Positions 7,418 to 43,099 of a DNA stretch of 64,000 nucleotides are shown here, one piece after another. Position 1 is the stretch's first letter; every line of letters begins with the position of its first letter. Source of the stretch: Acidimicrobiales bacterium (lineage in GTDB: Bacteria; Actinomycetota; Acidimicrobiia; Acidimicrobiales; JACCXE01); assembly GCA_035546775.1 (NCBI GenBank), contig DASZWD010000067.1, positions 1 to 64,000 on the forward strand, read 5' to 3'. A program made the translations under genes and the position numbers. Under the pieces are notes generated by a model. The model saw nothing but the letters and a program-made list of their open reading frames with translations. It searched no databases and was not told where the DNA came from.

Positions 7418-9163
7418 CTAGGCGCTTGGGACGATCACGCACCGGCAGCCCGGGTGGGCGGGCGGGTGCAGGTGCCCCGTGGGGTAGGCGGTGCCGATGG
7501 TGACGGGACCGGCCAGGCCGTTGTCGTCGCAGTCGGTGCAGCACGGATGCTCGGGATCGCTGGCCCACACGCCGGTGACCCCCGGTGGCGTCGCATGGTG
7601 GACACCGACGGCCCACGCGGCGGCCAGCCAGTCCTCCGACAGCCGCATCGAGCGCTGCGACTTGGCTTCGCGGTAGGCGGAGCTCACGCGGTCGGTCGCG
7701 GCGAACTGGTCGTCGCCGACGGCCGCGGCTTCGTGCAGGCGCTCGTCGAGCCGGCGGCGCAGCGGGAGGATCAGCTCCATCGCCAGGTCGTTGGCGACCG
7801 TCGTGATCGCCAGCGTCGGCACGTCGAGCTTGCTGCCGCTCAACGCCGCCCCGGCGCGAGCGGCTTCGGCCAGCATCGGCTCGACGATCACGGCGTAGGC
7901 GGCGAGGTGCTGGGTTTCGGCCCCGAGGACGGTCTCGGCGTCGGGCGTGCCGCGTGCCGAACGCAACCGGTCCAGCACCAGGTTCTGCTCGTCCTGGAGC
8001 GCCCGCTTGATGCGACGCGTCAGCTGCTCTTCGAGCGGCCCGATCGCTTCGCGCCGCGCCGCCACCCGCTCCGCCGCGACGTCCGGCTCCGGCTCGGCTT
8101 CGGGCACCGGCTCCGGTTCCGCCTCGACGGCGACCACAGGCTCCGGCTCGGGCTGGGGTTCGGGCTCGACCGCAACCACGGGCTCCGGCTCCGGCTCCGG
8201 CTCGACTTCCTCCGAACTGGTCCTGTCCAGCACCGGATTCCGGTCCTCGACAGGACCAGTTCCGGGAGGGGCAGGGGGCGTGACCGGGGGACGGGCGCCT
8301 TTGCCCTTCTTGCGGTGGGGGCGGCTCGGCGGCGCGGCCTCCACGACGGGTGGCTCGGGCGGCAGGTCGAGCAACGGGACCGACGCCAGTGAGTCGGCGC
8401 GGTTCGGGTCGAGGGCGGCGTTGAGCCGCCGGCCGACTTCCTCGGCGGCGCGCCGGGCCTCGTCGTCGGCGACGCCTAACTCGGAGGTCGCCTGCTCGAG
8501 GGTGGTGCGCACGACTTCGTAGGCCTGCAACAGCCGCTCGCGCCCGGCGCGCAACTGTTCGATCTGGGTGTTGGCGACGCGGCGCCGGCGCCGTACGTCG
8601 GACAGCACGTCGTTGCGCTCGGCCTTGGCCGCTTCGATCGTCTCAGCCGAGATGCGTTCGGCTTCCTCGCGCATCGCCGCCGCGGCCGTGGTCGCTTCGC
8701 TCGTCACGCGCTCGGCTTCCTCGCGCGCGACGCGCAGGATCTCGGCCGCTTCGGCCTCCGCGGCGGCGCGCCGAACCTCCAGCACGCCGGCGGCTTCGGT
8801 CGTCAACTTCGACGACTCGTCGCGCGCCTGCTGCACCACGCGCTCCACGTGCTCCTCGGCGCGCCCGCGGATCTCGGCGGCGGCTTCGTGCGCGCTCTGC
8901 AGGATGCGCGCCGTCTCCTCGCCCAGCGCCGACATGAGTTGTGCTTCGCCGATGACGGGGTTCTCGGCGCGTGTCTCGGCGTCGCGCAGCCGGCGCTGCA
9001 GGTCTTCGTTGTGGGCCTGCAGGGCGCGGACGTGGTCGGCCACACCGCGGAGAAACTCGCGAACTTGGTTGACGTCGAAGCCGCGCAGAGCCGTACGGAA
9101 TCCGACCCGCGCGATGCCTTCGGAGGTCAGTGGTGCACGATCAGCGGGCCGTTGTTCGGCCAT
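7418..9163 (-). CDS. DivIVA-domain protein with MuF-like C-terminus
   Basis: A 581-residue protein with an unusual combination of parts. Residues 15-60 match the DivIVA N-terminal domain (VGFRTALRGFDVNQVREFL). Residues 60-240 are a long Ala/Glu/Arg coiled coil. Residues 270-360 are a Pro/Glu linker of repeated E-P-E-P units. Residues 375-581 are a second globular part that ends in a C-x-x-C cluster and the pattern P-P-A-H-P-G-C-R-C, the hallmark of phage head-morphogenesis (Mu gpF/SPP1 gp7) C-termini. DivIVA proteins mark curved membrane and recruit wall-growth proteins, so a polar or septal role is likely for the N-terminus. A 49-bp palindrome lies in frame in the linker. Confidence 0.8.
   Translation of the reverse strand: MAEQRPADRAPLTSEGIARVGFRTALRGFDVNQVREFLRGVADHVRALQAHNEDLQRRLRDAETRAENPVIGEAQLMSALGEETARILQSAHEAAAEIRGRAEEHVERVVQQARDESSKLTTEAAGVLEVRRAAAEAEAAEILRVAREEAERVTSEATTAAAAMREEAERISAETIEAAKAERNDVLSDVRRRRRVANTQIEQLRAGRERLLQAYEVVRTTLEQATSELGVADDEARRAAEEVGRRLNAALDPNRADSLASVPLLDLPPEPPVVEAAPPSRPHRKKGKGARPPVTPPAPPGTGPVEDRNPVLDRTSSEEVEPEPEPEPVVAVEPEPQPEPEPVVAVEAEPEPVPEAEPEPDVAAERVAARREAIGPLEEQLTRRIKRALQDEQNLVLDRLRSARGTPDAETVLGAETQHLAAYAVIVEPMLAEAARAGAALSGSKLDVPTLAITTVANDLAMELILPLRRRLDERLHEAAAVGDDQFAATDRVSSAYREAKSQRSMRLSEDWLAAAWAVGVHHATPPGVTGVWASDPEHPCCTDCDDNGLAGPVTIGTAYPTGHLHPPAHPGCRCVIVPSA
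8214..8262. repeat. 49-bp palindrome inside coding region
   Basis: A near-perfect palindrome centred on T8238 with 22 of 24 base pairs matched. It lies within the DivIVA-domain gene and encodes a G-P-V-E-D-R-N-P-V-L-D-R-T-S-S stretch in the linker, around residues 301-317. Length, central T and 18 of 24 arm positions agree with the intergenic palindrome at 42873-42923, so the two probably share an origin. Confidence 0.75.
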
Positions 9164-16358: not shown

Positions 16359-16406
16359 CCGTGTGCGGAGTTGCTCCAGGCAAAGCCGGAGCAACTCCGC
16401 ACACGG
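16359..16406. terminator. Two-way terminator palindrome
   Basis: A perfect 19-bp inverted repeat (arms starting CCGTGTGCGGAG) with a further GGC/GCC pair and an AAA loop. It begins 2 bp after the HEAT-gene stop and ends 14 bp before the mreB stop. The position between convergent genes suggests termination in both directions, though no T-tract is present. Confidence 0.75.
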
Positions 16407-18893: not shown

Positions 18894-18944
18894 CAATCGG
18901 TATGCGGAATGTGCCCCGATGGGGCACATTCCGCATACCGATTG
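18894..18944. terminator. Two-way terminator palindrome
   Basis: A perfect 24-bp inverted repeat with a GAT loop, starting 5 bp after the HtrA stop and ending 2 bp before the SDR stop. The core TGCGGA is shared with the hairpin at 16359-16406. It very likely terminates both convergent genes. Confidence 0.8.
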
Positions 18945-21423: not shown

Positions 21424-21486
21424 TTGTCGAAGAAGAAGGACAAGAAGAAGGACAAGAAGAAGCGCAAGAAGAACAAGAAGAAGTAA
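21424..21486 (+). CDS. 20-residue poly-lysine micropeptide
   Basis: A short ORF with a TTG start, a strong AAGGGGG ribosome site 7 bp upstream and a TAA stop. After Met-Ser it is built from K-K-K-D, K-K-K-D, K-K-K-R, K-K-N, K-K-K units: 14 of 20 residues are lysine and the pI is extreme. Lysines are all AAG, as in neighbouring genes. It is flanked by the operator array and by a perfect terminator hairpin, so it is a complete transcription unit. It could bind nucleic acid or ribosomes, as other tiny basic proteins do. It does not match the small actinobacterial ribosomal proteins bS22 or bL37 that I know. Confidence 0.6.
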   Translation: MSKKKDKKKDKKKRKKNKKK

Positions 21487-21530
21487 CTACGAAAGCGGCC
21501 CTCCCGATTCGGGAGGGCCGCTTTCGTAGT
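21486..21530. terminator. Two-way terminator palindrome
   Basis: A perfect 21-bp inverted repeat (arms ACTACGAAAGCGG...) with an ATT loop. It starts at the last base of the micropeptide stop and ends 2 bp before the convergent gene's stop. TTTCG follows the GC core on both sides inside the arms. Confidence 0.8.
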
Positions 21531-21532
21531 CA

Positions 21533-22501
21533 CTACGGCGTCGCCTCTGGGCCTGGCTCTGCGGGCGCAATCGGCTGAGCCAGGATCGACTCGGCGTAAC
21601 TCAGTGGCGCCTGCACGACCTCCGGCTCGGACTCGGACTCGTCGCGCCGGCGGTAGCGCTTGCGGATCACCCGTTGCGCGAACCACGACGCGTCCGCCAG
21701 CAAGGCGATGAGGAGCACCACGAAGAGGAGCGCGTGATTGCTGGTCGTCGCGCTGACGCTCGTGATGGGGCCCGCGCCGCTCGCCGCCACGGTCCAGTGC
21801 AGCTTGCCGATGACGGGCGCGGGCACGCGCACGCGCTGCGTGTGCGTCCACGTTGCTCCGGCGGCGAGCGTGCTCGGTCCGTTGATGCGCACGTACCGCG
21901 CCTGGTCGTTGCCGCGGCGACCGGCGCGCGCCGTGAGCTTGATGTCACTCAGCGCTTCGGGCACCAAGTTGTGTACCCGCACCGTCAGCGCGTACGTCGT
22001 CGCCCCGCCGAGTTGTGACCGCACCCAGGCGCCGAATCCGGCACCGGCGCGACGCACCGAAAGCTCGACCGACAGCGGCGGTTCGTCCGCCGCGTTCACG
22101 ATCGGCGCCACGGGATGACCGATAACTTCGATCGACGCGAACGCGACGAGCGACTGCGTCGAGTTCGTCACTTCGATTACGCACGGACACGGCGCCGGCG
22201 GTGCCGCGACCTCGAAAGGCACCGACGCGCTCTGTTGGAACTGACTGATGCCGTAGCCGAGGCTGCGGGTGACGGCACAGTCGACGCTGCCGCGGTGGGC
22301 GTCGTTGCCGCAGATCGTGATGACAACCGACTGCTGCTTCGGCCAACCCTTGAGGCTGACGATCACCTTCTGTCCCGGCGCGGCGGCCGCGGGCGCGACG
22401 CTGACCGACGGCGTCGCGGCGCGCGCCGGAGCGGTTGCGAACAGCACCAACCCGATAAGGGCGGCGCCGAGTGAAGCGGCCCCCGCCTGCCTTCGGCTCA
22501 T
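21533..22501 (-). CDS. Secreted, membrane-anchored surface protein
   Basis: A 322-residue protein with a signal peptide (LGAALIGLVLFATAPARAA), a β-rich N-terminal domain (VSVAPAAAAPGQKVIVSLKG; one pair of cysteines in C-P-C), a second Ig-like region, and a C-terminal helix (LLFVVLLIALLADASWF) followed by a basic and then acidic tail. It starts within the stop of the upstream DUF916-like gene (ATGA overlap), so the two are coupled and the products probably work together at the surface. Family not recognised. Confidence 0.7.
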   Translation of the reverse strand: MSRRQAGAASLGAALIGLVLFATAPARAATPSVSVAPAAAAPGQKVIVSLKGWPKQQSVVITICGNDAHRGSVDCAVTRSLGYGISQFQQSASVPFEVAAPPAPCPCVIEVTNSTQSLVAFASIEVIGHPVAPIVNAADEPPLSVELSVRRAGAGFGAWVRSQLGGATTYALTVRVHNLVPEALSDIKLTARAGRRGNDQARYVRINGPSTLAAGATWTHTQRVRVPAPVIGKLHWTVAASGAGPITSVSATTSNHALLFVVLLIALLADASWFAQRVIRKRYRRRDESESEPEVVQAPLSYAESILAQPIAPAEPGPEATP

Positions 22502-42608: not shown

Positions 42609-42860
42609 ATGGACACTGAGTGGATGAGCATCGGCAAGTGCCGTGAGGTGCATCCTGCCGTGTTTTTCCCGAGTGATGGTGTCGGGGTCGAGATCGCCCG
42701 CAAACTGTGCGCCGACTGTCCCGTCAAGGCGCCGTGTCTCGAATACGCCATCGAGAACAAGATCGATCATGGCGTATGGGGCGGCGCCTCCGAGCGCGAG
42801 CGCCGTCGCATCATGCGCCAGCGCCGCCTCGATGCGGCGGCTTTGCGCGCCGCCAACTAA
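42609..42860 (+). CDS. WhiB-family Fe-S regulator
   Basis: An 83-residue WhiB-like protein that binds a [4Fe-4S] cluster and partners the primary sigma factor. The four cysteines are C11, C34, C37 and C43, with C-A-D-C-P-V-K-A-P-C typical of the family, followed by G-V-W-G-G and a basic tail (RERRRIMRQRR). The short N-terminus with W-M-S-I-G-K-C recalls WhiB1-type proteins. A GAGGAGG ribosome site precedes the ATG. Confidence 0.93.
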   Translation: MDTEWMSIGKCREVHPAVFFPSDGVGVEIARKLCADCPVKAPCLEYAIENKIDHGVWGGASERERRRIMRQRRLDAAALRAAN

Positions 42861-42872
42861 CAGCACGCTCTC

Positions 42873-42923
42873 CGAACTCGCTCTGTCCTGCACCGCCTGG
42901 CGGTGCAGGACAGAGCGAGTTCG
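42873..42923. terminator. 51-bp palindrome between whiB and tatA
   Basis: A perfect 25-bp inverted repeat centred on T42898. It starts 12 bp after the WhiB stop and ends 5 bp before the tatA stop, so it probably terminates both. The inner 49 bp match the coding palindrome at 8214-8262 in length, central base and 18 of 24 arm positions. Confidence 0.8.
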
Positions 42924-42928
42924 TGTTG

Positions 42929-43099
42929 TCAGGCCTTGTTTTCGGTCTCGGAGTCGTCCTTGGCGCCTTCTTTGACGCCTTCCTTGAACTCCTTCTGCGC
43001 CTGTCCAATCGAACGCGCGAGCTTCGGCAGCCGCGCCGATCCGAACAGGAGAAGGACGACGACAAGGATGATCAGTAGTTCTGGGGCTCCCAGGTTCAT
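42929..43099 (-). CDS. tatA: TatA twin-arginine translocase subunit
   Basis: A 56-residue TatA: a short N-terminus, helix (PELLIILVVVLLLFG), the conserved F-G-x-x-x-L-P hinge (FGSARLPKL), an amphipathic helix (ARSIGQAQKEFKEGV) and an acidic tail. TatA oligomers form the pore of the Tat export system for folded proteins. The ATG at 43099 gives the usual M-N-L-G-A-P-E-L start; an upstream start adds 13 unlikely residues. tatC is not in the window. Confidence 0.9.
   Translation of the reverse strand: MNLGAPELLIILVVVLLLFGSARLPKLARSIGQAQKEFKEGVKEGAKDDSETENKA

Follow-up and report, generated by a model that had tools for sequence, protein, structure and literature searches.

The window, a stretch of 64,000 nucleotides from an Acidimicrobiales bacterium, contains at positions 7418..9163 (-) a gene for a 581-residue protein with a DivIVA domain (Pfam DivIVA, E 4.6e-12). 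The protein consists of the N-terminal DivIVA domain, a variable P/E-rich linker and a conserved C-terminal region of ~200 residues. The linker carries, at 8214-8262, the in-frame 49-bp palindrome reported in the initial annotation, with 24-nt arms that are complementary at 22 of 24 positions and a central T; the reading frame stays open across it. Together with the conserved sequence CGGAG that follows it on the 3' side, as read along the gene, the palindrome forms an element at 8210..8264 (-) that scores 76.3 bits (E 9e-18) with the covariance model described below and encodes residues 302-318 of the DivIVA-like protein, TGPVEDRNPVLDRTSSE. The C-terminal region of this protein, which is conserved in the same-genus orthologue and includes the motif CCTDCDDN...PTGHLHPPAHPGCRC, matches phage portal and head-morphogenesis families (PHROG 2662, E 6e-6) and has no match in Pfam; the protein would join, in an unusual pairing, a DivIVA domain to one of the phage-head type.

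A second element of the same type is located at 42870..42924 (-), between the convergent genes whiB (42609-42860 +) and tatA (42929-43099 -). Its palindrome, at 42873-42923, has perfect 25-nt arms around a central T and is predicted to form a bidirectional terminator hairpin of -50.4 kcal/mol. The initial annotation described the two palindromes as equal in length, with a common central T and 18 of 24 arm positions shared, one being an intergenic terminator candidate and the other coding for protein. The central T and the division between an intergenic and a coding copy are borne out by our analysis, and the 18 of 24 figure is exact for the left arms, the right arms being alike at 16 of 24 positions; the lengths differ in that the second palindrome spans 51 bp, and it is its 49-bp core (42874-42922) that corresponds to the first. 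A search of Rfam detected no known RNA family at the window palindromes or at the other palindrome families examined.

A degenerate pattern made from both window copies gave, at up to three mismatches, 10 forward/reverse matches in the 3.75-Mb genome of this bacterium and 0 when reversed as a control. A covariance model derived from 10 aligned copies, with which we searched this genome and the only same-genus genome (G001), identified 21 places in the former and 0 in the latter at E < 0.01; the E-values, the best of which reach 7.5e-20, are approximate, and the ten copies used to build the model are bound to match it. The additional matches brought to light a second type of the repeat, type B, and a search with a type-B pattern yielded three more places. 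We count 24 copies in the genome, 15 of type A and 9 of type B, dispersed over many contigs, including weaker type-A members at C61:34253 and C3:385 (44 and 40 bits). Extension of the covariance model search over 729 kb more produced no further type-A copies, one known type-B copy and weak matches to other palindromes. Type A has the form GAACTGGTCCTGTCCAGCACCGG-nnn-reverse complement (consensus in full: CGAACTGGTCCTGTCCAGCACCGG-nnn-CCGGTGCTGGACAGGACCAGTTCGGAG) and type B the form AACTTGTGTTCTGTSGCACCCG-nnn-reverse complement (in full: AAACTTGTGTTCTGTSGCACCCG-nnn-CGGGTGCSACAGAACACAAGTTTG). The elements are ~50-55 bp in size, with a near-perfect 23-bp stem and a 3-nt loop; 9 copies lie inside genes with an open frame and 15 are intergenic.

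The family is confined to this genome within the material searched: no true copy was found in the same-genus genome or in 296 other genomes of the order. Across 298 genomes of the order, the type-A half-site (one mismatch allowed) is represented outside its own genome by isolated singles only, and matches to the type-B half-site (two mismatches) all lie in the genome of the window. When 84,980 species were scanned, 60 scattered single matches appeared, about the number expected by chance. Viral contigs contain two single, chance-level matches to type A and none to type B, and plasmids contain no match, so that a phage or plasmid vector was rejected. In a distant relative (G003), two palindromes whose ends resemble those of our repeats (GAACTGGCACGCG ... 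CGCGTGCCACTTC) stand in tandem at L275:14922-15039, and 400 kb of its sequence include a few related half-sites, which may point to a class of hairpins, each specific to its genome, across the order.

The genic copies reside in unrelated genes. Type A is found in the DivIVA-like protein, ahead of the C-terminal domain of an ABC-F ATPase, in a loop of the carbamoyltransferase HypF, at the C-terminus of a PadR protein, in a linker of KGD, and at the LivM-LivF and glycosyltransferase-glycosyltransferase junctions of two fusion proteins; type B is found in the N-terminal region of a CocE protein and at the junction of an E1-alpha/beta fusion. All six full-length 49-nt type-A genic copies are read in one of the three possible frames (ACT GGT CCT ...; p = 0.004) and encode the peptide TGPVxxRxPVxxRTSSE or a close variant. 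The frame in use is the hydrophilic one and lacks Cys and Trp. In the glycosyltransferase copy, one extra base within the palindrome causes the frame to switch midway. The Liv protein is encoded by a single open reading frame of ~1,310 codons (L142:1528-5469) that combines segments of a branched-chain amino acid permease with two ABC ATPase segments, the type-A palindrome linking the permease to the first ATPase.

Comparison with homologues showed that the encoded segment is missing from relatives of several of these proteins. The cleanest case is CocE: the gene upstream of it encodes a paralogue with 46% identity in which precisely a 20-residue block containing the palindrome peptide is absent. 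The peptide is also absent from the DivIVA orthologue of the same-genus genome, which is 63% identical along its length, its linker being too variable to align for an empty site to be defined. In HypF, the peptide is missing from 27 homologues, and the net gain of the own protein over the nearest of them is only ~7 residues; in E1-alpha/beta, the linker of the closest homologue has the same length, so that at this site either a replacement or subsequent shortening has to be supposed. The linkers of these two proteins are not lengthened in the way that simple insertion predicts. Alignment of KGD with the mycobacterial enzyme places the palindrome in a variable linker. An origin of the E1-alpha/beta linker through gene fusion was ruled out because palindrome-free fused homologues exist.

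The intergenic copies are strongly biased in their location. With genes around the copies called by a codon-usage caller written for this analysis, and with the CocE palindrome counted as genic even though the caller's choice of start codon made it intergenic, 12 of the 15 intergenic copies of types A and B lie between convergent genes, compared with 143 of 867 background junctions (p = 1.1e-7), and 0 of the 15 lie between divergent genes; one copy directly follows a tRNA gene. In many cases the copy takes up the narrow space that separates two stop codons. The predicted RNA hairpins mostly have energies of -40 to -50 kcal/mol and are devoid of obvious T-tracts. Given their concentration at convergent junctions, the intergenic copies probably serve also as bidirectional terminators, a role suggested by position.

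The two arms of a copy evolve in concert and resemble each other more than they resemble the arms of other copies. In type A, the arms differ at 8.4% of positions within a copy versus 21.7% between copies, and double changes that preserve pairing exceed those in all 500 shuffles; covariation is weaker in type B (4/500 shuffles). Relative to the consensus, the intergenic copies show 21 symmetric and 12 asymmetric changes, and the genic copies 5 and 13, with the Liv fusion as a genic exception that has five symmetric changes. Selection on the hairpin explains the symmetric changes in the intergenic copies; a mode of copying that rebuilds the palindrome, or correction by template switching of the kind proposed elsewhere for palindromes (PMC6649704), would account for the Liv fusion as well. 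We tentatively suggest, as a possibility that we hold to be rather doubtful, that the palindrome is remade from a single arm at each copying, by hairpin-primed or template-switch synthesis, without any Y1/RAYT transposase. If true, such regeneration would be a mode of hairpin multiplication new to bacterial genomes, and it would account for arms that are alike within a copy and different between copies, even in genes.

The genome contains other palindromes of this general kind. In 0.92 Mb of its sequence we identified five further families, C to G, each represented by 2-4 copies, all of them intergenic, at 18894-18944 and 16359-16406 in the window and at loci in L226, L236, L238, L242, L248, L250, L260, L151 and L159. 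The window copy of family C (18894..18944, no strand assigned) is intergenic between convergent genes and has a second copy at L260:9935-9983; that of family F (16359..16406, likewise without strand) has further copies at L159:4333-4378 and L238:17797-17848. In family G, the loop is constant (CAGGGTCTTTCTG) and the stem is altered by compensation. A long palindrome with 28-nt arms and 2 mismatches at 21480..21536, again strandless and in a convergent intergenic region, has no second copy in the 0.92 Mb examined. Long palindromes (arms of at least 17 nt) amount to 40 per Mb in the own-genome sample, a value slightly inflated by three stretches chosen for their type-B copies, versus 20 per Mb in a distant relative; the same-genus genome has one in 0.10 Mb.

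Taken together, these observations make it likely that the palindrome in the DivIVA-domain gene belongs to a family of small hairpin repeats peculiar to this Acidimicrobiales genome, in which the family has spread. We infer its mobile nature from the dispersal of the copies, and the reading of the palindrome as a mobile element, put forward in the initial annotation, is supported by the outcome of both checks proposed there: a genome-wide search recovered 24 copies, and relatives of the DivIVA-like, HypF and CocE proteins lack the encoded segment. In the mechanism that we envisage, copies would be insertions of a mobile, non-autonomous palindrome and would persist where they are harmless, that is, at gene ends and in variable protein linkers or loops. 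At gene ends, the stable hairpin could act as a bidirectional terminator; in proteins, the stop-free palindrome would contribute ~17-20 hydrophilic residues; and within genes the palindrome would be expected to decay, the frame remaining open, as the KGD copy, with its 7 unpaired positions, may illustrate. Inspection of the flanks by eye detected no shared direct repeat indicative of target-site duplication.

The most serious competitor of the mobile family is the possibility that the repeats are primarily terminators: a few stable hairpins would have been transferred from one gene end to another, through recombination or gene conversion, because they function well, and the genic copies would be by-products of this transfer instead of insertions of a selfish element. 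The strong bias toward convergent junctions, the frequent occupation of the gap between two stop codons, the symmetric, pairing-preserving changes and the existence of several unrelated palindrome families at similar positions are all compatible with it. We nevertheless consider it improbable, given that nine copies lie in open reading frames, including those of DivIVA, ABC-F, HypF, KGD and CocE, where a terminator would be harmful, that the genic copy in the Liv fusion also shows symmetric changes, and that gene conversion alone does not put a sequence at new, unrelated sites.

Recognition of the palindrome by a host protein, for instance as a nucleoid-binding, segregation or uptake signal, could account for a dispersed, conserved half-site (GAACTGGTCCTGTCC); however, the half-sites come in palindromic pairs, the arms change symmetrically between copies, types A and B differ strongly, and the only ~24 copies are tied to gene ends and linkers, so that we regard a DNA-binding site as very unlikely. 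DNA uptake signals specifically are ruled out because the half-sites occur as palindromic pairs. Even less credible, to the point of being negligible, is a coincidence of chance or low-complexity palindromes: GC-rich genomes do hold many short inverted repeats, and shorter ones are present here, but this explanation is refuted by the control counts, the reversed pattern having no matches, and the repeats reach E-values of 7.5e-20 and show family-level sequence identity at unrelated loci. Integron attC sites, which came into consideration on account of the AAC/GTT ends, were rejected, on sequence and general knowledge, as neither a core-site consensus nor cassette arrays are apparent.

Among the known systems, the spreading hairpin family most closely recalls the Rickettsia palindromic elements (RPEs; Ogata et al. 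2000, 2002), which are ~150 bp in size and come from Rickettsia (PMC10969869, PMC3733652). As RPEs are described there, the analogy drawn in the initial annotation is apt: several palindrome families per genome, in-frame copies in unrelated genes (here nine), a common peptide encoded by them (here TGPVxxRxPVxxRTSSE in six) and additional intergenic copies. By the same descriptions, the present repeats differ in being 49-55 bp long, GC-rich and actinobacterial, with a 23-bp stem and a 3-nt loop. Repetitive extragenic palindromes (REPs) of the GTAG- and CGTC-tagged superfamilies are species-specific and lie mostly downstream of genes, in convergent or unidirectional arrangement (Di Nocera et al. 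2013, PMC3733652); intragenic units have been reported, and the CGTC type seems to have no transposase of its own (PMC3733652). The repeats described here are likewise genome-specific palindromes at gene 3' ends with a convergent bias and intragenic copies, and in this broad sense, as multi-copy elements with 15 intergenic copies, 12 convergent and 0 divergent, they resemble REPs. However, the stem is ~23 bp long, compared with 5-13 bp (GTAG) and 8-9 bp (CGTC) in REPs (PMC3733652), and no dimers or clusters were seen. Type A is flanked by CGGAG on one side and by variable sequence on the opposite one, no tag accompanies type B, and CGTC is absent from the foot of the hairpin. Membership in the REP/RAYT system was rejected on the lack of a GTAG or CGTC tag and of a Y1/RAYT transposase gene (Y1_Tnp, PF01797), for which the 97.5% complete genome had no match and control genomes were positive.

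Bacterial MITEs are small non-autonomous repeats, some of which make in-frame fusions; they consist of an internal region bounded by terminal repeats and in most cases duplicate their target site (reviewed in PMC10969869). The present element consists entirely of a single palindrome, and no such duplication was seen by eye in its flanks. In the mitochondria of Nematomorpha, coding sequences contain perfect palindromes of up to 284 bp with arms that are kept alike (PMC6649704). The presence within coding sequence and the similarity of the arms are shared with our repeats, but those palindromes belong to animal mitochondrial genes, in contrast to a dispersed bacterial sequence family of ~50 bp. 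In-frame palindromic selfish elements had been described as a peculiarity of Rickettsia, and intragenic REPs had been reported from certain other bacteria; the finding of several families, of nine in-frame copies and of a marked preference for terminator positions in a GC-rich genome of an actinobacterium shows that the phenomenon arises elsewhere. This genome offers a place to test how hairpins spread without a transposase and how mobile DNA becomes a source of protein linkers and terminators. The repeats work like RPEs or intragenic REPs and are assigned to neither; their kind is already known from those two systems, and what is new is the lineage in which in-frame palindromic repeats occur.
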